NCBI GenBank assembly: GCA_034401795.1
Contig: CM067359.1
Location: forward strand, 140,133,923 to 140,197,922
Origin: Chaetoderma sp. LZ-2023a
Taxonomy: Eukaryota > Mollusca > Caudofoveata > Chaetodermatida > Chaetodermatidae
Direction: 5' to 3'
Length of the DNA: 64,000 nucleotides
Numbering within the stretch: the first letter of the stretch is position 1; every line of letters starts with the position of its first letter. Made by a program: the position numbers and the translations under genes. Positions 1,474-62,477 of the stretch are shown here, piece by piece. The notes under the pieces were generated by a model. The model worked only from the letters and a program-made list of their open reading frames with translations. It did not search any database and was not told where the DNA came from.

Positions 1474-3002
1474 TCAAAAATTGAAAACTGAAAGTATGCC
1501 TCCCCCCCCCCCACACTCTTGGTACCCCTATGTGCTCTGTCTCTTGAATACGCGTCTATGCGTCACTACTCCTCTCTGGCCACGCGCCTTCTCGGGAAGT
1601 CTATAATTCCCGCCTAGCGTACGTCTGTGCACCCTGCCCGTCTAGGATTCGTTTCCTGAACACGCCCCTCTGGGTAGAGCTACAAGCGTATATAGGCCTA
1701 TGAGAGCGAGAGAGTGTCGAAAAATGACTGAGTTCATTAAAACGCATTATGCGCATGCGCGCACCGGCACACTGTTTCTATAGAGTGCATGGTTGTGACC
1801 TAGATAGGATGACGCTTTTAGTGTACTGAGCTGGTACTCTGTAATCCTTATTGATTGACTGTTCCCATTAACCAAGAGGGACAGGCTCCTCAAAGGTTGG
1901 CGGGAACAGGCGGCAGTGGGCCCGCGAGGGTCCGGGGATACATAAAACAATGGCTCATAGTGCAGAGGAGATACTGAAGGCCTCCGTGTCTAACAAAGGA
2001 TGAATTAACATTCGACTGTGGTACCGTCTAGTCGCTGCATTGTTCGGGCTGCTGAACTTGGTAATAGTAAGTGGACAATGTGTGGTACATGGATGATAGT
2101 CCACACCCAGGACATTTCTAGCAGACTAGAAGTTAGCCGGCTGTGTTTGCTAGAGATGGCCTGCAGGCAAGGCCGGAGAAAACGGTCAAAGTTCATACTC
2201 TGTTGGCAAATAGGTACGGATCAGACCGTCGGTTGCCCCTGAGCGTGAGCTCAGATGGTGATCGCTATCAACTGGGTCCCTGGCCGGTCATCTTGATCAT
2301 GTCAGTTCATCAACCCATTCTTGATTATGAGTGGTCAAGATGGCTCAATGTACAGTCAGGCCATGGCAAGCATTCGTATTGCACGTCATGCCTCCTGTGA
2401 TCAGAGAAACATGAAAATGCCGGACGAGTGGGACAGTCTGGCACCCAGGTACGCGTGGGGTGGATTATCTGTCTAAGTACGATCTGCACAGGGCTCAGCT
2501 AAAATGACGTCAAAGTACGATCTACGTGAGGGCCTTAGTTGCGATGCGTCTAGTGGACATCGCCTCCGTGGTACGGTCTATGCGGGGCTACAGCCCTTGC
2601 CAAGATGACCCTATTGGCGCCTAGTACTGTGTTCGCTCGGCTCAGGAGTCGTCAGTGTGCATCTTGACTCTGTCCCGGATTATGGCCCCATAACTTGGAC
2701 AGGTCTCAGGCATATATGGAAAGGTACCCAGCCTAGGCTGCACCCTGTGCGGGGAACTGGGCGTCCATCCGGCGTGGCGGGGACAGTGAACCACACCTGG
2801 AAGGCCAAATGGTACAAGTGAAATCTGGCATTAATCAAGATCAGAATTCGACGGGCTTTCCGAATCTGTAAACCATTTCAAAATCGGTTGAGAAATGGCT
2901 GAGTTATCCAGGAAAAACTCTTCATGATAATCGACTGTGCTATTATTAGCTGCGCGTTGATTAGCTGTTGCTCGAACGATGATTGGATGGAGTCTGCGCC
3001 TG

Positions 3003-3025
3003 TGACGTCACGGGGAGTATAAAAG
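3003..3025 (+). promoter_or_regulatory. CRE-like site plus TATA box, copy A
   Basis: TGACGTCA (3003-3010) is followed 8 bp later by TATAAAAG (3018-3025). The same arrangement occurs in copies B (inverted) and C, with the shared downstream word GAGAGCATC about where transcription would start. The order and spacing are those of an RNA polymerase II core promoter; activity is inferred. Confidence 0.55.
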
Positions 3026-3479
3026 GAGAAGCAATCCAGTGATCGAGAGCATCCTCAGCCAGGGGCCGAACAGGTTGGATCTGTACCAGCTACTACAAGC
3101 GCGACAGACATTACGCGTCTTCCTTCGCTATGCGTCAAGTTTTTATCCCGTAGCGTGCAGTTCTCCAACCCACCGCATTAAAACAATTTTGTAACTCCCC
3201 ATCTGCGGGAGTAATTTTGGAACATTTGATAATCGTTCACGAATAATACATCCACATTCGGAACACAAACTTGTGGTGAAGCCTTTGCGGCCCAAATATG
3301 TGAGTCTACAGATGTAGAGGTAGGATGGTCTTTGATGGATGACTCGCTGGATCTGCCGGCCATGCCTAAAAGTGGTATTTCAAACGTCTGCCGCACCAAT
3401 CGCCATGGCTTAAAGCGGGAGAAGAACAATAGGCAAAAATGGGCCCACTCTAATATTTCAAACAAAAATGATGTAGAAA

Positions 3480-5380
3480 GAAAAGACCATACCTAGTGAG
3501 ATTATGACTATAGTGGTGCGTACTGTTTTATATGAAGACGGAATGGAAGATTTCCGATGGATTCCCTTGTCACCGTCTTATGTGATTCTTAATATGTTGA
3601 ATTAGTAGTTTCCGCTGTATTTCTGCGGGCCTTCTGCTTTGCTTAATTCCTTTTAGTTATTTTCAGAACAAAAATTATTTTAGGCCGCAACTGGCTGATA
3701 TCTACCTAGCTATAAGACATGGCTCTCACGGAGAACAGATGCCCTAAGACATCAATACTGTAGACAGCGCTCAAACATGTTACTTAGTGGGATCTCCGAA
3801 CTGGGTAAGAATCTGGACATTCCGCTTCGTAACCACATAAAACATTACAAGACATGGGTTACATTTCATGAAAGCATTATTAGGCGATTTCTCTTATCGT
3901 TATGGGGGGGGGGGTAAGAGAGACGAATACCCACCGTAAATGTCCTTCCCGCAAGGGTGTGGCAGATCTAAATATCATGCCCAGATATTTTAACAGAATT
4001 CGGTGGGTATACGTATCTCGCTCATCACCGGGTCCTATGGAACTAACCGTTTACCCTGTCGATAGGTTTATATACAAGTTGCCAGTTTTGCACTGCAGTG
4101 CATGAGGATTGTCAGTAAATAAAATAATAATTAGTACATGTGTTTTCGCAGTGCTTTCCTACATTGGGTTAAAGTACTAGCTACTAAGTATCCGAAGATA
4201 CACGGGAGTGTGTGTGATGCCGCAATCTAGCCATCACCGCTCGGAAATCCCAATAGTTTCCCAGAGTCGGATCAGCCCATGGTATGGATAGGGACATCCA
4301 AACAATTAAGAAGCCACAAGGCTATGAGGAGCATAAAGAGAGACAAACTCTTACTTATGAGTCTTACCGGAGTGCGGGGCTAGATTATCGCACTACCGGA
4401 AGAGAAGAAGAATATATTACACAGTATGTAATGGAGACAGTGTCTCTGATCGTTTTGAACATATCTTATCAAGCTGTATATAGAACAGGTTAGTCGGTAG
4501 CATGCCGGGCTAAACAGAGTTATAGCACGGACAGCGACCTCAGTGTAAAAATGTTGTTGGTGGGCGAAAGTGCTGCATATATCAGTGTTGCTGTATAGTG
4601 TTTCTTACGTGCGCTGCAGTCCTATATTTTCTATAACTAAGCAAAACATGTGAACGGATGGCCACTGGCCATATATATACATAATCTAACCAGAACAAAC
4701 AATATGGTGTCAAACGATTACGATATATATGTTAATACAGGTTAATGAACCTACTATAGTGCGGTTAGCAACACATTGAGCAAAATGATAATAATTATTA
4801 ACAAATACAGAAATTATAACTATCGGTCCTAAGACCGTTGCGGTTCCTTTTAGTCATCGGGACCGTTTTTACGGATACAATATAATTAACAAAACCTATA
4901 TAGAGAAATAATTAAACTGTGAAGTATAGTTACTTGAATACTTGGTAGTCATTCCCAAGTTAGGCTACCATGTTACTGAAATTGATGCATCAATCCGTAG
5001 TCGACGTGAGATGATGCGCTCTCCGGAAGCTGTAAAGTTCCCGCAGGCTGGTTCCCGCAGGTTGGTTCCCGCAAGCTGTTGTCCGCAAACAAGATTCCCA
5101 CAAGAACACTCATGGCGGGTGAAGGACATCACTCAGCACTGTAAGCCTAATAGAATGTCTAACGAGCAGTCAGTAAAGGATACGATAGTACTACGTGGTG
5201 AAGAAAGTTCCCGTAAACCGATGGTACGGATGGAAGGTATAAACAACCTGATCACTAGCGGGGGTTGTTAGAGGCAAATGAAGATACAAAACAAAACTTC
5301 ACGGTGCTGGGTACGTCGGTCAGCTCTGAAGACGCACCGGGCAGAGTTTACTTGCTGCGGTAGAAAGTCGAAAGTACCTA
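3480..5380. other. Segment between inverted copies A and B; no recognised gene
   Basis: About 1.9 kb flanked by the inverted repeats. It holds a G run at 3904-3914 and short open frames at 4284-4493 (69 aa, basic/acidic mixed) and 4942-5271 (109 aa, basic). Neither resembles a family I know, and both could be chance. The position between inverted repeats is the only reason to look at them. Confidence 0.4.
5037..5092 (+). repeat. 14-bp tandem repeat, about four units
   Basis: GTTCCCGCAGGCTG, GTTCCCGCAGGTTG and GTTCCCGCAAGCTG follow head to tail, then a decayed fourth unit (TTGTCCGCAAACAA). Confidence 0.75.
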
Positions 5381-6240
5381 CACGATTGGTTCAGTGGCAT
5401 TTGAAATACCACCTTTAGGCGTGGCCGGCAGATCCGGCGAGTCATCCATCAAAGAACATCCTGCCTCTACATCTGTAGACACATATTCAGGCCACAAAGG
5501 CCTCACCACAAATTTGTGTTTCGAATGTGGATGTTAGTATTCGTGAACGATTATCAAAAGTTCCAAATTCTCCCGCAGATAGGGAGTTACAAAATTGTTT
5601 TAGTGTGGTGGGTTGGAAAACTGCACTCTACGGGATAAAAACCCTACATATAGCGAAAGAAGACGCGTATCATGCTTATTAGTAGTTGGTACAGATCCAA
5701 CCTGTTCGGCCCCTGGCCGAGGATGCTCTTGATCACTGGATCGCTTCTCCTTTTATACTTCCCGTGACGTCACAGGCGCAGGCTCCATCCAATCATCGTT
5801 CGAGCAACAGCCAATCAGCGTGTGGCTAATAATAGCGTAGTCGAACATTCTAGAAGCTTTACGTCCACGTGGTTATGACGTCACGGCAATATTTTGAAGA
5901 TAATCAAGAAGAGTTTTCCCTGGATAACTCAGCCATTTCTCAACCGATTTTGAAATGGTTTGCAGATTTGGAAAGCCCGTCGAATTCTGGTCTTGATTAA
6001 TGCCAGATTTAACGAGAACAGGCAATCAATAAGGATTACAGAGTACCATCTCGGTACACTAAAGGCGCCATCCTATCTAGGTCACAACTACGTGCTCCAT
6101 AGAAACAGAGTCCCGGCGCGCCCATGTGCATAATGTGTTTTAACGAACTTAGTCGTTTTTCGACACGCTCGCTCTCTCCATAGGCCTATATACGCTTATA
6201 GCCCTACCCAGAGGGACGTGTTCAGGAAACGAATTCAGGA
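5381..6240 (-). repeat. Repeat unit copy B, inverted relative to A and C
   Basis: Its reverse complement aligns with 1641-1880 plus 2823-3410 of copy A with scattered substitutions and small indels. It lacks the 940-bp internal stretch of copy A. Differences such as extra bases in the segment matching 3233-3400 break every shared reading frame, so the repeat is probably not conserved as protein. Confidence 0.75.
5750..5772 (-). promoter_or_regulatory. CRE-like site plus TATA box, copy B
   Basis: On the minus strand, TGACGTCA (5765-5772) precedes TATAAAAG (5750-5757), matching copy A in order and spacing but pointing leftwards. Confidence 0.5.
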
Positions 6241-15222: not shown

Positions 15223-15652
15223 ATTTTAAAGGAGTTACCATTGTAATATTATGCAACAGCTTTATTAAACACATTATATACCTGAAATGTATATGACATT
15301 CACATTTTCAAGATTATTTATTGTTATATTATTGTCAGAGATTCATACACATTATGATTAGCGTTATTTTAATGGTTGAACTGTTAACCCTTTTACTGCT
15401 ACATTGTGAGATTGAACGTAACTTATTCAGTTCGCAGACCTGACTAAAACACATCCATGGCTCATGAATACTATATCAGAGTTAATAAGGATTTCCCTGT
15501 GCCCTAGTTGTTGCTAATTCTGAGAATAGTGTTGCTATATGTTGTTGCTGAATAGAGCAACAGTTTTAACCCTTTAATAGAACTCAAGCCAGTCACAAAT
15601 CGCTTCTACAGTTGTAGAAAATATAAATTTTCTTGAATATACTTGAGGTCCT

Positions 15653-15885
15653 TTAACTCTTTAACACTCATATCAGCCAAAAGCGGCTTCTGGAGTGGTC
15701 TTGGGAAATCTCCATTCGCAGACCAAGAGAATACTATGTATGAAAATTTACCACTCGAATGACTGGCTCGATAACCCAGCCAGTCATTCCAATGTTAAAA
15801 AATCATATTCTCTTGGTCTGCAAATAAACATTTTCTATGAGAAAATTGAAATTCTCTTGAACAAATCCTAACGAACTAAATTATA
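15653..15885. repeat. F1 fold-back element
   Basis: Starts TTAACTCTTTAACACTC. Both arms are present around CTCGATAACCCAGCC. The right terminus is worn, with no clear TTAA. Confidence 0.75.
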
Positions 15886-15904
15886 TCAAGAATGTTGAAA
15901 TTTG

Positions 15905-16112
15905 TGCTTAAGTGAATGGCCATTTGCAGGCCAAGAGAAGACCATTTTAAAAATTTTACCTCAGGAATGAATGGCTCGATCTACTGAAGCAGTCACGCCA
16001 ATATTAAAATTTCAAAAATGGTCTTCTCTTGGCTTGCAAGTGGACATTCCTCAAGACCTCCAGAGGCCGGATTTCGCCAGCTTGACCACTAAAGTGTTAA
16101 ACTAAAAGGGTT
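15905..16112. repeat. F1 fold-back element, variant
   Basis: Arms GGCCATTTGCAGGCCAAG and CTTGGCTTGCAAGTGGAC pair. The centre is decayed. The right end is AAAGTGTTAA with AAAAGGGTTAAG just beyond. Confidence 0.65.
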
Positions 16113-16164
16113 AAGAATGTACCTTTCATAACCGTATCCATTATAAGCATGAAAGCTGGCATTT

Positions 16165-23816: not shown

Positions 23817-24232
23817 TGGTCAAGTTCCGTGCCCAGAAGGACTTGGCATGGTCTGATGCGGGATCAGGCGGTCCGAAAGTAAATCATGGAGCATCCGTTT
23901 CAGCCCCTGGGTGCGCTCCATGTCTACAACCAGAGGTTGCGGAGATGGCACCGCCGGCGTGGTTTGAACCTGCTATGCAAGGCTTCTTGCATAGCGTCCT
24001 GCCTACGCTAGTGTCGTCCCTGCTGCCAAAAGTTGTAGGACAGTTTCTTCCCGTGCTTGGTACTGACCCTGTCCTTGGACATGGTTCTGTTCTGGCCACC
24101 GAGGGAGCTGTCTCGTACGGCTCCCTGGCAGTCCTGTCGGGCTCTGGCCTGATGGGTTCTGTCTCTCTGCGGCCACCTCTGGGTGGTCCAGTAGCAGTGG
24201 CCGGTCCGTCAGGCATGGGAGCCGTCCGCTAG
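23813..24232 (+). CDS. DIRS-A gag-like ORF
   Basis: An ATG-started frame of 139 codons. Residues 40-75 form a possibly helical hydrophobic stretch (PAWFEPAMQGFLHSVLPTLV); the rest is Gly/Ser/Pro/Val-rich. By position, between the Cys/His segment and the RT frame, it should be the structural (gag) protein that packages the RNA, but no domain can be named. It ends TAG at 24,230-24,232, overlapping the next frame by one base. The acidic stretch SESEDEEAEEE just after the overlap is probably the rest of gag displaced by a frameshift. Confidence 0.55.
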   Translation: MMVKFRAQKDLAWSDAGSGGPKVNHGASVSAPGCAPCLQPEVAEMAPPAWFEPAMQGFLHSVLPTLVSSLLPKVVGQFLPVLGTDPVLGHGSVLATEGAVSYGSLAVLSGSGLMGSVSLRPPLGGPVAVAGPSGMGAVR

Positions 24233-25704
24233 TGTTTCCTTGTCTGGTGACGACTTCGGAGTCTGAAGATGAGGAGGCCGAGGAGGAGAGATTGCTGCGG
24301 CCTGAGATGGCGTGGGTAGAGAGCATGGAGGTCGATTCCGTCCTGGATGGCATCGCTTTCCATCTGTCTGGCTTGGCACAAGCCAGGACAGCGGCTCCGC
24401 CTGTGGTTAAGGCCACTCCGGTACCGGGCACCGGTCCCATGATGGTTGGTTTGCTGCCAACTGACACAGTGACCGGTGTCGCTGGCCAGGTGTGGTATAC
24501 ACCTATGCTTGGCCACTGTTCCTCAACCGTTACAGGTCTGCACGGTTTTCCGTGCAGGCCTACTCCATGGACTGGTGTTTTCCATGGGGTGGCGGTGGAA
24601 TCGACGGCTCCACAGGTTTTCACCAGAGTGGTCCTTGTGGTGACAGCGTTTCTCAGAAGAGAGAACGTGCCGCTTCACACCTACATAGACGATTGGTTTA
24701 CCAAAGCAGACATGCCAGCCAAGTTAGACGTGGATACTGCTCTGACTCTGAAGTTACTTTCAGATCTAGGCTGGATAGTCAACAAGGAGAAATCTGAGTT
24801 GACACCCACTCAACAGTTCGTTTATTTAGGGATGCGATTCGATCTCGAGGAGGGCAGGGTTTACCCGTCAGAGCCCAGAGTGGTGTCTCTGTTAGCCATC
24901 CTCAAGAGTTTTCAATTGGGAAACCACATTCAGGCGAGGCGGTTTCTTCAGATGCTGGCCATGATGGTCTCCATGGAGCAAGTAATCCCGTACGCTACTC
25001 TGATGCGAAGACCTATCCAGTTGTATCTGATGTCTCTGTGGAAACAGAGAACAGAACCCCTGTCAAAGCTGGTGCCAGTTTTGGAGCCATTAATGTCGCA
25101 TCTTGTATGGTGGAAAAAGTGTCAGAATCTCCTAGTAGGGGTTTCAATGCACCTAGCCCACCCCCAGCTGTCCGTGTACATGGATGCATCGCGGGAGGGA
25201 TGGGGGGGGGCCTGCCTGGGAGAACACCAGGTCTCGGGCACATGGACTCTCCAAGAGAGCCAGCTGCATATCAATCTGTTGGAAATGATGGCAGTGGAAC
25301 TGGCGCTGGAAAGGTTTCTTCCAAATGTCAGGGGCAAGGCGATATTGATACGGTCGGACAACTTGACAGTAGTATCATACATAAATCGCCAAGGCGGGAC
25401 CAAGTCACCCATACTATGTATGAAAGTGTGGCACTTGGTTCAATGGTGCAGGAATTACTCGGTTGTTTTGAAAGCAGCTCACATTCCTGGGCGATTGAAC
25501 ATTCTGGCGGAAGGTTTGTCTCGGAGACAGAGAATTCTGCCAACAGAATGGTCTCTCAACCCGTTCGCCAGAAAGGAAAATGTTCAAATCACGACTTATG
25601 TCTCGCCGATTCCAGATCCAAATGCCGTCGATACAGACGCTCTGGCGATAAGCTGGAGAGGGATGCACGCTTACGTGTACCCACCCACCATTCTTCTGCC
25701 ATAG
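24232..25704 (+). pseudogene. DIRS-A reverse transcriptase / RNase H, 5'-truncated and interrupted
   Basis: A 490-codon frame. Residues 1-130 look like gag C-terminus (acidic cluster at 10-20) plus low-complexity sequence. RT homology begins abruptly at STAPQVFTRVV (about 126-136). The RT catalytic box YIDD is at 151-154, followed by thumb-like sequence. RNase H follows: YMDAS (Asp 318), LLEMMAVELAL (Glu 351), RSDN (Asp 376) and HIPGRLN..AEGLSR, where the usual final Asp is Glu 427. The RT fingers and motif A are absent, so it cannot be a working polymerase. TAG at 25,702 stops the frame, but homology continues in the same frame to about 26,007 (APFWPSRVWFTDLL). The segment around the stop (YPPT ... 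APFWP) matches the methyltransferase-like region described for DIRS1 elements; that is my inference. Confidence 0.85.
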
Positions 25705-26849
25705 ATATTGGTGAAGATCAGGGAGGAACCGTGCATGGTCCTGCTAATTGCTCCATTTTGGCCCAGCAGGGTGTGGTTCACAGATCTTCTAGATCCACAC
25801 GAGCGTCCCGAAATGTTCAAATTGACTGCGTGGATGTTATCAAAGAACGTTCCACATCGAAAGGTTTTTCTCGACAAGCTGCGAAATTCATCGCAGCTGC
25901 GAGAAGGAGGGCAACCTTCAAGTCATATAACAACAAGGTTAACAGATTTGCAGACTGGTGTGAAGGAAAGGGTATTGATACCTTTCAATCCACTATTCAG
26001 CAAATAGCAGACTTTCTCTGTGAGCTGTTCTTTTCAGGACCAGCTCCTGTCACAATTGCTGGATACAAGTCAGCTTTGGCTTCAGTTATACCTTGTCTAG
26101 CCAACAGGGATAGTCCAGAGGTGGCCCAGTTAAATGTGATGGTGAAGGGAATGAGCAATCTCCGACTGAGACAACCGGTAGTCATTCCAGCCTGGGGTCT
26201 ATCTTTAGTGCTTGATGTACTGGCCATGCACACTTTCGAACCATTGTGTTTGGCTAGTCTAAAGCATTTGACTCTAATGGCGGGCTTTCTATTGGCAGCT
26301 TCGTCAGCTAGAAGGCGCAGTGAGATCCATGCACTTTCAGCAGAGAGGGACCGATTTATTGTCTCCGGAGAGGGTCTGCGTCTACTGCCAAGAGCAGAGT
26401 TTATGTCAAAGAATCAATCTTTGAAATATCCCGGCAAACCGATCATTATACCGAAACTAACTAGATTTGATCGTGATGCCAGTGTCTGGTGCCCAGTCCA
26501 TGCTTTGACTAAGTACAAAAGACGGACAGACTTGTTATGGTCGAATGATAGACATCTGTGGATCTGCCATAAGAAGCCATATGGCGCCGCATCCATGGAT
26601 TCTATCTCTCGTTGGGTAGTCGATTGCATTCAGACTACCCATGAGATTGCGACTGGGCACCAGGTGCAATGCGCAAGGGCACACAATGTTAGAGGAATAG
26701 CCGCCTCGACCGCCCTTTACAATGGTGTTCCGTTAGAGGATATCATGGCTGTTGCACAATGGCACTGTGAGTCCTCTTTCACGGATTACTATATGAGGGA
26801 TGTGTCAGACTCCGGCAATCCACTCGCTTTAGCTGTTTTGAAACGATAG
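25038..26849 (+). CDS. DIRS-A tyrosine recombinase (integrase)
   Basis: An open frame of 603 codons in a different register, overlapping the RT/RNase H frame. Residues 1 to about 280 are the shadow of that frame; the true start is unknown and may be near 25,800. Recombinase homology runs from about residue 275: an N-terminal DNA-binding part (ATFKSYNNKVNRFADWC, about 290-306), then the catalytic domain with Arg 426 (ARRRSEIHALS), His 549 and Arg 552 (RAHNVRG), Trp 575 (AQWHCESS) and the nucleophile Tyr 584 or 585 (FTDYYMRDV). This R-HxxR-W-Y set is that of DIRS/phage-type recombinases, which insert a circular DNA copy. No stop or frameshift was found in the domain, in contrast to the broken RT. 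Confidence 0.85.
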   Translation: METENRTPVKAGASFGAINVASCMVEKVSESPSRGFNAPSPPPAVRVHGCIAGGMGGGLPGRTPGLGHMDSPREPAAYQSVGNDGSGTGAGKVSSKCQGQGDIDTVGQLDSSIIHKSPRRDQVTHTMYESVALGSMVQELLGCFESSSHSWAIEHSGGRFVSETENSANRMVSQPVRQKGKCSNHDLCLADSRSKCRRYRRSGDKLERDARLRVPTHHSSAIDIGEDQGGTVHGPANCSILAQQGVVHRSSRSTRASRNVQIDCVDVIKERSTSKGFSRQAAKFIAAARRRATFKSYNNKVNRFADWCEGKGIDTFQSTIQQIADFLCELFFSGPAPVTIAGYKSALASVIPCLANRDSPEVAQLNVMVKGMSNLRLRQPVVIPAWGLSLVLDVLAMHTFEPLCLASLKHLTLMAGFLLAASSARRRSEIHALSAERDRFIVSGEGLRLLPRAEFMSKNQSLKYPGKPIIIPKLTRFDRDASVWCPVHALTKYKRRTDLLWSNDRHLWICHKKPYGAASMDSISRWVVDCIQTTHEIATGHQVQCARAHNVRGIAASTALYNGVPLEDIMAVAQWHCESSFTDYYMRDVSDSGNPLALAVLKR

Positions 26850-29199: not shown

Positions 29200-29510
29200 G
29201 AAAAAAAAAAAATTTCCTTGATCTAATTTGAGCCAGTTTTAATAATTAGGCACATTCAAATTTAATCCCGTTGATAATTTTAAGAGAACCCAAATACAAT
29301 GAAAAGTTTTCTAAAAATAATACGCATTGATTTAAATGCTCCAAATTTTAACTAATTAAAAATATTTTTTTAAAGAGTTAAGATTATCTAAGAAAACTGT
29401 ACTGTTGTTGTTTGGCTAACTGATAAGTCTCCATAGTGACCTATACCTATATGTATAATACTGTTTATTTAGCTGTCTGAGAATGTGTGCTTCTGGGTGG
29501 GTGGAGATTA
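29200..29510. other. AT-rich spacer, nothing recognised
   Basis: An A run and low-complexity AT sequence. Confidence 0.4.
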
Positions 29511-29515
29511 ACACT

Positions 29516-29745
29516 TTAACCCTCGAATTTGTTCAAGAAATTGTAATTTTCTCATAGAAAATGCACATTTTCAGATTAAGACTATTTAAAAAAATTTATG
29601 ACTTGAATGACGGGCTGGGCTCGGTTATTGAGCCAATCATTCCAGTGGTAAATTTAAAAAAAATAGTTTTCTTAGTCTGCAAAAGGGCATTATAGAAGAC
29701 CACTACAGAAGCTGTCTTGGGCAGGTTTGAGGTTTAAAGGGTTAA
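29516..29745. repeat. F1 element bounded by TTAA
   Basis: Left TTAACCCTCGAATTTG, right TTTAAAGGGTTAA. The right TTAA is shared with the start of an F2 half element. Confidence 0.75.
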
Positions 29746-29925
29746 CCCTTTCACAGCCCAGTATATCAATCTCAGGGCAAACAAACAGGAAAGCTGTTGA
29801 ATTCTTTGAAATTTATAATATGACCAGAAGCCATTGCAGATTTTAAATTAAAGGAGGAACTGGTGTACACTTTTCAACAAATTTGGTGGTTGAGGTTGAG
29901 GCTGTCATAGACAGCGATGCGTGGT
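29742..29925. repeat. F2 half element followed by an F5 half element
   Basis: TTAACCCTTTCACAGCC through GCTGTTGAATTCTTTG to AGAAGCCATTGCAG (F2), then AACTGGTGTACACTTTTC to GTCATAGACAGC (F5). Confidence 0.55.
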
Positions 29926-29929
29926 AAGT

Positions 29930-30520
29930 GTTTAAGACAGTAATGACTTCCACTCATATTAATTTCAAAATATTCAACAAAATATGCTTTGTACATAATT
30001 TACTTTTTCATTGATTGATGTTTGAAAGAGTTAATAGTTGGAGTTAGGGATGAGGAGCAAGAGATAGTCTGTGGCGTACAGTATATAGACTTAGATTAAG
30101 TCTGGGAGCATTTTCTGTGTGCATACAAGCCTGACTTATGGTCTAATTTGATGATTAAGCCTCAGTGTCCTGAGGTCAGTGGCTGTATAATGATGATTAA
30201 GGCTTGGTGCCCTGAGGCCAGCACTCAAGAGGTTATTCATACAGTTAGTGTATGATGATTGGCAATAATGATATCAGATGATCAGGGATAAACCACTGGC
30301 ATGGGGAGTTCCCCAGAATGTGTTTATATTAAGCCAAATGCTCTATAATTATAAAATTTGGTGAATATTTTGAAAACAAGTTGAGTGAAAGTTGTTGCTG
30401 TCGTAGAGCTTTCAGACTATTCAATCAATTATGTTCAAATTAATCATTGCAGTAGGTCTGCTTATAAATTTTATAAATATGCAATCTGTGAGATATACTG
30501 AAGGATAGCTTTAACTGCTT
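29930..30520. other. Spacer with an F4-like arm at 30,345-30,430
   Basis: GTGAATATTTTGAAAAC and TGAAAGTTGTTGCTG mark a partial F4. CCTGAGG(T/C)CAG(T/C) is duplicated at about 30,170 and 30,210. No gene. Confidence 0.4.
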
Positions 30521-30529
30521 CAGGGAGAC

Positions 30530-30960
30530 ATGATTTCAATTGATGAATCCATGCAGTTCTAGCATGACCTGCCAATCTCTAGTTGAGCTCCACCCACGCT
30601 TTGCCTGTGTTGAGATCGACCGATCCCTGCACTCCTTGAATCTCAATTTCCAGAAAGCTGTACAGGTAAGCTGTTGAATATTTTGAAACTAATTTGACTG
30701 GGTGCTGGTGCTAGGCAGCAACAACACCCAGTCGAATTAGTTTCAAAATATTCAACAGAACGTTTATTAAATAGAAAAGACATGCAATTCCTACAACTTG
30801 ACAGACTATTAAGCATTTATGGCGGACTTACTCAAGTCATTCATGATGTAATTGATTATGACGTCAGCCTTCACGTGACGTAGTTGATTATGATGTCATA
30901 TGATTGACTGAGAGACTGGATTCCTCAACATTACAGATGACTGATTCATCTTGATCTGCA
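30530..30960. repeat. F3 fold-back element
   Basis: Tail CTAGTTGAGCTCCACCC and ATCGACCGATCCCTGC, core CTGTTGAATATTTTGAAAC, centre GGTGCTGGTGCTAGGCAGC, return core, then ATTATGACGTCAGCC and ATTATGATGTCATATG. This is the most complete F3 copy. Confidence 0.8.
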
Positions 30961-31671: not shown

Positions 31672-31890
31672 GATTAACAGTCTGACTGCTGATGAGTTTC
31701 TGCAGAAGACATGTTCCATGGCTTATACTTCTGGATCTGCTAAATATTTTGAAAACAATTTGGGTGAAAGTTGTTGTTGGCTAAGCCACGAATAACTTTC
31801 AGTCAAACTGTTTTCAAAATATTCAATACATCAAGAGTTTTTGCTCACTGGAATTGTTGTCTGGTGGTGTGCAGGAGCGAGACAGTTAAG
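31672..31890. repeat. F4 fold-back element
   Basis: TTAACAGTCTGACTGC at the left and GAGACAGTTAA at the right. The core AAATATTTTGAAAAC is mirrored by TTTTCAAAATATTC. Confidence 0.75.
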
Positions 31891-38224: not shown

Positions 38225-38560
38225 TTGATATTTTGAGCATAATTTGATTGGAAGATATTGCTGGCCATAACCCTTTAACACTGATAACAGCCAAAAATGG
38301 CTTCTGCAGTAGTCTTGAGAAATGTCCATTTGCAGACCAAGAGAAGACTATTTTTGAAAATTTGCTACTGGAATGGCTGGCTCGATAACCGAGCCAGTCA
38401 TTCCAGTGGTAAATTTTCAAAAATAGTCCTCATGGTCTGCAAATGGACATTTTCTATGAGAAATCTGAAATTTATTTGAAGAAATTCGAGGGTTAATGTG
38501 TTAAGGCTGCTAAGGCATGTCTTCCAATCCAATTATATTCAAAATATTCAATAAGTGCGT
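38225..38560. repeat. F2-like palindrome split by an F1 insertion
   Basis: The left half (GATATTTTGAGCATAATTTG, ATTGGAAGATATTGC) ends at about 38,267. F1 occupies 38,268-38,504. The right half (GGCTGCTAAGGCATG, TTCCAATCCAATTATATTC, AAAATATTCAATAAG) resumes at once. Confidence 0.75.
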
Positions 38561-40784: not shown

Positions 40785-41015
40785 ATCTAGGGGAAATTTA
40801 TCAGTGGAATGGTCAAGCTGGCCAAAACTGGCCTCTGCAGTGGTTTTGAGAAATGTCCATTTGCAGACCATGAGAAGACTAATTTTGAAAATTTACCAGT
40901 AGAATGACTGGCTTGATAATTGAGCCAATTATTCCAGTGGTAAAGTTTCCAAAATAGTTTTCTCCTGACCTTCAAATGGAGATTTTCTATGAGAAAATTC
41001 TTAACAAAATTCGAC
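40785..41015. repeat. F1 fold-back element
   Basis: GTCAAGCTGGCCAAAACTGG, centre CTTGATAATTGAGCC, arms complete, ends worn. Confidence 0.7.
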
Positions 41016-41255
41016 CATTAGCCCTTTAATCCTCGAATTTATTCAAGAAAATTTCAATTTTATCATAGAAAATGTGCATTTGCAGACCAAGAGAAGAATA
41101 TTTTTGAAATTTTACCACTGGAATGACTGGCTTAGTTATCGAGCCAGTCATTCCAGTGGTAAATTTTCAAAAATAGTATTTTTGGGTCTGCAAATGGACA
41201 TTTCTCAAGACCACTGCAGAAGCTGTTTTTGGCTGATATGAGTGTTAAGGGTTAA
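41016..41255. repeat. F1 fold-back element, right end TTAA
   Basis: Abuts the previous copy. CCCTTTAATCCTCGAATT at the left, AGTGTTAAGGGTTAA at the right; opposite orientation. Confidence 0.75.
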
Positions 41256-52611: not shown

Positions 52612-52822
52612 TTAACACTTTCACCCACAAATCCTGGAAAAGGTATATTCTTTACGATATAAAATCTATTCTGTTGAATATTTTGAAATTAATTTGCCTG
52701 GAAGCCATTGCTGTCTACGGCAGTAACGGCTTCGAGTCAAATTAATTAAAAAATATCCAACAATTTTCCTGTATGCTTGCCTTGAAAATGAGCTATGGGG
52801 AATTCATCAGTGAAAGGGTTAA
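52612..52822. repeat. F2 fold-back element bounded by TTAA
   Basis: TTAACACTTTCACCC at the left and GTGAAAGGGTTAA at the right (211 bp). Centre GCCATTGCTGTCTACGGCAG. Confidence 0.85.
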
Positions 52823-53262: not shown

Positions 53263-53434
53263 AAGCCATTATAATACACTTCATTCTACTGCCAGACCTG
53301 TCTTAAGCAACCACCTTTATCATGAGCGAAAAGTTACTCACGATACAGTACAGATCATAAATAAGTTATAATGTTTCCAAAACAAAAACATGTTTAAAAG
53401 TTGATACAATTTTGAACACAATCTAAGTAATGTT

Positions 53435-53780
53435 CTGTTGGCTATTTTGGACATAATTTAATTAGAAGCCTTTGAATGCTTCCAATCTAATTAACCATTT
53501 AATGGTCAAGCTGACCAAAACCAGCCTCTGTTATTCTCTTGTGGAATGTCCATTTACAGGCCAAGAGAATACAATTTTTGAAAATATACCACTGGAATGA
53601 CTGGCTCGATAACCGAACCAGTCATTCCAGTGATAAATTTTCAAAAATTGTATTCTCTTGGCCTGTAAATGGACTTTCAATAGGCAGATATTTAAATTTT
53701 GTTGACCAAATTTAACCATTAAAGGGTTAAATCCAGAATATTCAACAGTATGTTTTGTTTTGCTTTGAAAACAAGGTTAC
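53435..53780. repeat. F2 copy with an F1 inserted at a duplicated TTAA
   Basis: F2 left arm and centre at 53,435-53,490 (TTAGAAGCCTTTGAATGC, TTCCAATCTAA). F1 lies between TTAA at 53,491-53,494 and TTAA at 53,727-53,730. The F2 right arm resumes as ATCCAGAATATTCAACAG. Joining the flanks with one TTAA restores the usual F2 arm (AATTAATTTCAAAATATTC in other copies). Confidence 0.8.
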
Positions 53781-53839
53781 TTCTGAGCTGTACTTTATGC
53801 ACAGCTGGTCTGATTGTATTGTGATTAATCCTGTATGAT

Positions 53840-57554: not shown

Positions 57555-57660
57555 CTGTGTGTGCGCGCGTGTGTGCATGCGTGCGCGCGCGCACACGCGC
57601 GCGTACGTGCGTGCGTGCATGCGCCTACATGCTTACGTGTGTGTTTGTGCAGGTGCTAAG
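57555..57660. repeat. Alternating purine-pyrimidine tract
   Basis: GTGTGCGCGCGTGTGTGC and GCGCGCGCACACGCGCGC; Z-DNA-prone. Confidence 0.9.
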
Positions 57661-57672
57661 TGCATGTGCGGT

Positions 57673-57837
57673 TGAGTGAGTAAGTGAGAGTGAGTGAGTG
57701 AGGGTGAGTGAGTGAGTGAGTGAGTGAGTGAGTGAGTGAGTGAGTGAGTGAGTGAGTGAGTGAGTGAGTGAGTGAGTGAGTGAGTGAGTGAGTGAGTGAG
57801 TGAGTGAGTGAGTGAGTGAGTGAGTGAGTGAGTGAGT

Positions 57838-57885
<48 letters not shown>

Positions 57886-58057
57886 GTGAGTGAGTGAGTG
57901 AGTGAGTGAGTGAGTGAGTGAGTGAGGGAGGGAGGGAGGGAGGGAGGGAGGGAGGGAGGGAGGGAGGGGAGGGATGGGAGGGAGGGAGGGAGGGAGGGAG
58001 GGAGGGAGGGAGGGAGGGAGGGAGGGAGGGAGGGAGGGAGGGAGGGAGGGAGGGAGG

Positions 58058-58149
<92 letters not shown>
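57673..58149 (+). repeat. Long purine tract: (TGAG)n, (GA)n, (GGGA)n, (GA)n
   Basis: GAGT repeats to about 57,842, GA to 57,881, GAGT to 57,924, GGGA to about 58,062 (one ATG interruption at about 57,974), then GA to 58,149. Long open frames on both strands here (up to 194 codons of Ser-Leu, Pro-Ser or Arg-Glu) are artefacts. Confidence 0.97.
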
Positions 58150-58244
58150 ATGTTTATGATGTGGGACTCTATTCCTATGCAATAGCACTCTAAAACTAAT
58201 CATAGTCAAATACTATATCAGTCTACCAAGTACTATAAAACTTG

Positions 58245-62241: not shown

Positions 62242-62477
62242 TTAACCCTTTAACCTTTGAATTTGTTCAAGAAAATTTAAATTTTCTCTTAAGAAATGTC
62301 CATTTGCAGACCAGGAGACGACTGTGTTTGAAAATTTACCACTGGAATGACTAGCTCAGTTATCAAGCTAGTCATTTCAGTGGTAAATGTTCAAAAATTT
62401 TCTTTGGTCTGCAAATTTACATTTCTAAAGACCACTGCTTAGGCCGTTTTTTGCTGATATGAGTGTTAAAGGGTTAA
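62242..62477. repeat. F1 fold-back element bounded by TTAA
   Basis: TTAACCCTTTAACCTTTG at the left, TGTTAAAGGGTTAA at the right; centre AGCTCAGTTATCAAGCT keeps pairing through paired changes. Confidence 0.85.

Follow-up and report, generated by a model that had tools for sequence, protein, structure and literature searches.

A near-palindromic F1 repeat inserted at TTAA within an older F2 element suggests piggyBac-type mobilisation

The locus described here contains one repeat inside another. Within the window, i.e. the whole stretch of 64,000 nucleotides that was analysed, a 240-bp near-palindromic repeat, F1, occupies positions 53491-53730 (TTAA copies included) and splits a repeat of a second family, F2, exactly at the tetranucleotide TTAA. 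The F1 body is flanked by TTAA on both sides, at 53491-53494 and at 53727-53730, as the preliminary description of this DNA had claimed. That description was restricted to the interval 53435-53780, which covers F1 plus only parts of F2; the full extent of the interrupted F2 copy is about 53346-53795. The arrangement is an integration of F1 at TTAA in the right arm of an older element of the F2b type. The features of the locus, together with a neighboring F2 element, are as follows.

52612..52822, no strand assigned: F2a element with the hairpin core of F2b, but TTAA-flanked ends of the CCCTTTCAC type
53344..53345, no strand assigned: TA flanking the interrupted F2b on the left; of the 25 F2b copies fetched, 22 have a left end resembling TACAGTACAG with no more than 3 mismatches
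53346..53490, + strand: left part of F2b, up to the insertion point; the joined flanks match 39 other genomic places, 25 of them aligned
53491..53494, no strand assigned: TTAA, left copy of the duplicated target, from the sequence and the F1 end counts
53495..53726, + strand: body of the F1 MITE, near-palindromic, with ends CCATTTAATGGTC... and ...CCATTAAAGGG; F1 profile, 227 bits
53544..53678, no strand assigned: hairpin core of F1, two 65-nt arms, 94% complementary and 5 nt apart
53727..53730, no strand assigned: TTAA, right copy of the duplicated target, from the sequence and the F1 end counts
53731..53795, + strand: right part of F2b, from joined-flank matches and alignment
53796..53797, no strand assigned: TA flanking F2b on the right; of the 25 F2b copies fetched, 23 have a right end resembling CTGTACTGTA with no more than 3 mismatches

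The F1 body at 53495..53726 is devoid of any open reading frame of 150 amino acids or more. Elsewhere in the window, long overlapping reading frames at 24067-26846 probably belong to a retroelement; one of them matches RVT_1 at 28 bits, just below the Pfam cut-off of 29.6, and the other matches no Pfam family. Long simple repeats, which translate as SLSLSL/PPSL, lie at 57625-58209.

Removal of F1 together with one TTAA yielded a continuous F2 sequence. The joined sequence of 224 nt, which runs from the left flank (ending at 53490) through a single TTAA into the right flank (starting at 53731), found seven matches to other F2 copies in the window, all of them gap-free at the junction. When zero to eight retained bases were tried against 12 F2 arms of the window, one of which (38521) comes from an F2 copy with an interruption at another point, the sum of the scores was highest for four (510, compared to 498 for five and 474 for three). 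Two anchor motifs were 18 nt apart in eight of these 12 arms, matching the joined sequence; the remaining arms gave 16, 19 and 9 nt and, in one case, no match, and both the 9 nt and the missing match are artefacts of the motif search. In a search of the whole genome with the joined sequence, for which 40 of 2534 candidates were scored, at least 39 places besides the window crossed the junction as one match. The best 25 of these 39 uninterrupted places were fetched. Four retained bases fitted best in 22 of them, two in two and three in one, with summed scores of 2184 for four, 2113 for three and 2111 for five. The claim that excision of F1 plus one TTAA restores F2 is thus borne out by copies that lack F1 at this point. 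At the empty site, the 25 copies carried TTAA (10 copies), TTAT (11) or CTAC, TTAC, TAAA and TCAA (one each). Since TTAA or a close variant of it stands there in uninterrupted copies, the target belongs to the F2b family independently of F1.

F1 is an abundant family. A profile search (E up to 1e-3) returned 43 loci in the window, and another 28 in 11 of 20 nine-kilobase stretches from other places in the genome, which had been picked for the transposase domains they surround and are not a random sample. Altogether, the 328,603 bases examined contained 84 loci, 22 of them complete. A whole-genome search, in which 40 of 741 candidates were scored, returned at least 40 places on 17 contigs with 88-95% identity to the query. 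The consensus of 18 copies measures 240 nt, starts with TTAACCCTTTAA, ends with TTAAAGGGTTAA and is nearly all self-complementary, with a folding energy of −150 kcal/mol (RNA parameters). Outside this genome, a 17-letter F1 pattern led to 17 stretches of viral contigs, 15 of which were missed by the F1 profile. The profile touched the other two over 22-23 model positions around the query word (E 0.028 and 0.031), and we took these for chance matches.

In the 39 window ends of F1 that reach the edge of the profile, the seven positions from the outer T inwards are T (38), T (37), A (36), A (36), C (36), C (26) and C (28), and none of the 12 positions outside TTAA has a single letter in more than 18 of the 39. 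For 19 further ends, which lie outside the window in stretches surrounding transposase loci, the corresponding counts are T 18, T 17, A 17, A 18, C 16, C 17 and C 16. Conservation therefore sets in sharply with the outer T (38/39 in the window, 18/19 elsewhere), a letter that was mostly not selected for since profile matches usually begin at position 2. Exact TTAA is present at 31 of 39 ends in the window and at 13 of 19 elsewhere; its background is 0.9% of positions (574 starts in 64,000). Among the 22 complete copies, TTAA is intact on both sides in 10 and on one side in 11, while a single copy (41955) has it on neither. The commonest letters at the first four positions inside TTAA are CCCT in the 39 window ends, in agreement with the CC[C/T]T terminal motif of piggyBac-type elements; that F1 ends start with CCC, as had been proposed, is thus mostly so, the first C being present in 36 of 39. 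The focal copy itself starts with CCAT on one side and CCCT on the opposite side; when the first 16 letters of its two ends are compared by eye, 13 are in agreement.

More pairs of occupied and empty sites had been called for, and three other nested F1 copies in the window were compared with uninterrupted relatives.

38267..38504, + strand: F1 within a second F2b copy, in the centre of its palindrome, with tetramers ATAA and TTAA; nested according to the joined-flank match
41018..41255, − strand: F1 at a subterminal TTAA within a second F1 copy, which spans 40798-41017 and continues as a short remnant from 41256; picked by eye
62242..62477, − strand: F1 inside an F2c element, TTAA on both sides; 16 empty relatives compared

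The outcome was divided: the copy at 41018 gave a clean pair, but those at 38267 and 62242 fitted fewer than four retained bases best. At 41018, where the left tetramer is now TTAG and only 9 nt of right flank were usable, four bases gave the best sum (603, next 554 for five) and were the best choice for 11.7 of 22 F1 ends, ties being shared. The runner-up was eight (5.2 ends), probably because F1 ends themselves contain a second TTAA. A yardstick was available at the transposase locus L044, where an element with a piggyBac domain (2893-5396, ends CC..CAAGYGACC), likewise picked by eye, occupies the corresponding subterminal TTAA of an F1 copy; on the basis of 7 nt of right flank, four bases fitted best in 13.6 of 22 ends and eight in 4.6. 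Some piggyBac activity is therefore younger than that F1 copy. At 38267, an indel-rich stretch in the centre of the F2b palindrome, four bases were best in 0.4 of 25 empty copies (ties shared), zero to three took 18.6 of 25, and the best sum was obtained with two. At 62242, 16 empty copies were fetched from 24 places running past the joint; two bases fitted best in 10, three in three and four in three. Only two of the 16 carried exactly TTAA at the site, and the two-base TA was present in nine. We read this result as probable variation of the target between copies, since the flanks hold no TA repeat outside TTAA that would account for them, and not as clean evidence. Neither 38267 nor 62242 was therefore retained as further proof of a four-base duplication. 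An automatic screen of the joined flanks of the 22 complete F1 copies returned matches across the joint for 38267, 53491, 62242 and a copy at position 8726 of L034 only, the last of which was due to low complexity.

Further arrangements in the window look nested. An F1 copy at 29508-29745 and an F2a-like element (29742-29835 plus 29935-30034) have one TTAA in common, as if F1 had entered the TTAA flanking F2a. At 15566-16114, several F1-like ends are nested in each other, possibly as a nest in which an F1-like start at 15566 is interrupted at 15653.

The piggyBac transposase domain PF13843 (DDE_Tnp_1_7) had at least 119 matches in the genome, pieces of one gene being counted separately, with a best E of 8.9e-91; 14 control genomes gave none. 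Paired ends were looked for at 34 of these loci. Candidate ends had to have TTAA on one side or both, and those starting with C were slightly favoured in the scoring, so that TTAA and the C-start of the loci found are partly imposed by the search rules. Paired ends were present at 19 loci and not found at the other 15. Eighteen of the 19 had TTAA on both sides, and the remaining one (L026) TTAA and TTAG; 10 of 19 started with CCC at both ends. Seven (L026, L028, L029, L030, L035, L037, L061) had CACGTTGACTGCC ends, meaning that CCC is not universal among the piggyBac elements of this genome. The other types were CCCTATATTAAC at five loci (L041, L046, L048, L049, L050), CCCTTAGCACTC at three (L033, L034, L052), CCCTTATCCTGC at one (L032), CC..CAAGYGACC at L044, a weaker CCATCATCC/TCCTCATCC pair at L062 and CCCTTT[CA]GATCCC at L053, the nearest to F1 ends among the 34. 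Paired 'ends' at L031 were rejected as an artefact, being a copy of F2c. The exact ends of F1 were absent from all 34 loci examined out of the at least 119 matches. The transposase search suggested beforehand thus succeeded in so far as piggyBac domains are abundant, but not in providing one with F1's own termini among these loci.

Taken together, these data make it very probable that F1, as a palindromic MITE of the non-autonomous kind, owes its mobilisation to a piggyBac-type transposase. According to PMC7351741, piggyBac inserts at TTAA and is excised without a footprint. By analogy with piggyBac enzymology, such a transposase would bind the CCCTTTAA... ends of F1, cut the element out and insert it into a TTAA target opened with staggered ends, which would leave TTAA on both sides. 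The piggyBac-type integration put forward in the preliminary description is supported by the TTAA target and the CCC-starting ends, with reservations arising from 38267, 62242 and the transposase loci. F1 has TTAA on both sides, as is typical of the piggyBac superfamily, and the empty sites at 38267 and 62242 are the ones that do not fit four bases. Judged by its sequence, we file F1 as a putative new family of piggyBac-type MITEs, a well-known kind of element, with no matching transposase among the 34 loci examined.

Other origins were weighed against this reading. Membership in another TTAA-specific superfamily, Kolobok or Sola3, the latter having TTAA as its target, appears unlikely. Kolobok does make TTAA duplications and TTAA-flanked MITEs, for example T2-MITE of Xenopus (PMC6004289), so that the TTAA of F1 would suit it. 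Kolobok ends, however, are given as 5'-RR (PMC9587614), and as AGGRR in T2-MITE, while those of F1 are mostly CCC; we rejected Kolobok on these end letters (C in 36/39 and 26/39 at the first two positions). The occurrence of piggyBac transposase domains in this genome likewise argues against a Kolobok or Sola3 origin. A two-base TA duplication of the Tc1/mariner type, with the outer T and A of TTAA as a mere preference, is more difficult to address, because a four-base TTAA duplication and a TA duplication restricted to TTAA predict the same empty site and are inseparable by sequence. Two retained bases were indeed best in 10 of the 16 empty copies of 62242 and gave the best summed score at 38267. 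We nevertheless regard this explanation as very improbable: a bare TA target, with outer letters free to vary, would not keep the outermost T as constant as the letters further in (38/39 and 18/19), the flanks at 62242, where two of 16 empty copies have TTAA, are not accounted for by any TA repeat outside TTAA, and truly TA-flanked copies look as they do in the F2b family (TACAGTACAG), unlike F1.

Finally, F1 is adjacent to or within an F2 copy at several points of the window (16506, 38267, 53491, 62242), which might suggest that no insertion took place and that the two were copied together as one composite unit, or that the junction arose by assembly or recombination. We give this scarcely any credence. 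The position of F1 in F2 varies by copy (in the right arm, in the centre or outside the core), the F2b stretch occurs without F1 at that point in 39 genomic places, and the joined flanks of 18 of the 22 complete F1 copies match nothing across the joint in the DNA examined, so that F1 is not regularly tied to F2. Mobilisation of F1 by a piggyBac-type transposase thus remains our preferred explanation.

The F2 repeat deserves a comment of its own. Its hairpin core of about 90 bp was found inside about four otherwise different element frames; in the window it is seen at 52612-52822, 53346-53795, 30674-30759 and 31740-31826. F2a and its relatives have TTAA at seven of the 10 ends listed. F2b is flanked by TA and starts with CAGTACAG; with up to 3 mismatches, such ends were present in 22 of 25 copies on the left and in 23 of 25 on the right, the two missing right ends falling in stretches that match only part of the query. 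We take these CAGTACAG ends to resemble those of Tc1/mariner elements. F2c is a longer frame around the core, and F2d, with TTAA and CTGTCTG ends, is tentative, as it was read by eye from four copies on one side only. When 90 flanks of 51 core loci were compared, 31 matched no other, and the remaining ones clustered into F2a (5 copies), F2b (7), F2c (11) and F2d (4); the sample is enriched for F2b, five loci of which were fetched on purpose. These frames may represent modular MITEs, in which a hairpin was passed between families moved by different transposase superfamilies, either because the core is itself mobile or because the ends around it were replaced, a reading that we hold only tentatively. 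The nearest cases in the literature to a core common to frames of different superfamilies, as far as the sources consulted go, are the coral CMITEs, which involve TTAA/piggyBac only, and a conserved SINE domain spread within the DNA transposon MER6 (PMC6887750). With its common core, F2 gives an opportunity to test whether transposon families exchange hairpins.

The evidence from occupied and empty sites, with many empty relatives, indicates that an abundant palindromic MITE family uses TTAA as piggyBac does, in a host genome of 2.44 Gb that is rich in piggyBac transposase domains. Because a second TTAA lies within the F1 ends (TTAACCCTTTAA), every F1 copy adds new target sites, and these could help explain the nesting seen in the window.

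Among known elements, the Kolobok T2-MITE of Xenopus is, like F1, a TTAA-flanked MITE family, but has AGGRR instead of CCC at its ends (PMC6004289). The definition of piggyBac elements cited in PMC2872659 comprises a terminal CC[C/T]T motif in inverted repeats of 12-19 bp. The autonomous piggyBac element AmiPB2 of Acropora shares its terminal motif with F1, as seen in its left end, CCCTTTAACGCCC; AmiPB2 and the other autonomous Acropora piggyBac elements, however, encode a transposase and belong to a different animal, whereas F1 is gene-less (PMC2872659). The closest counterparts of F1 described there are the CMITE families of Acropora. They, too, are gene-less, make TTAA duplications and live in a genome with piggyBac transposases, and they share CCCTTT-type ends with F1, those of CMITE family II being CCCTTTAAGCCCTA (PMC2872659). 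CMITEs are about 100 bp long with another internal sequence, while F1 measures 240 bp and is almost wholly self-complementary; CMITE family I was matched to the piggyBac element AmiPB1, in contrast to F1, for which the 34 loci examined gave no match (PMC2872659). An internal region common to families with different ends, comparable to the F2 core, has been described for CMITEs as well. As for F1, an occupied and an empty site were paired at TTAA for CMITEs, in their case as a pair of alleles, and an insertion into the TTAA of another element was reported (PMC2872659).
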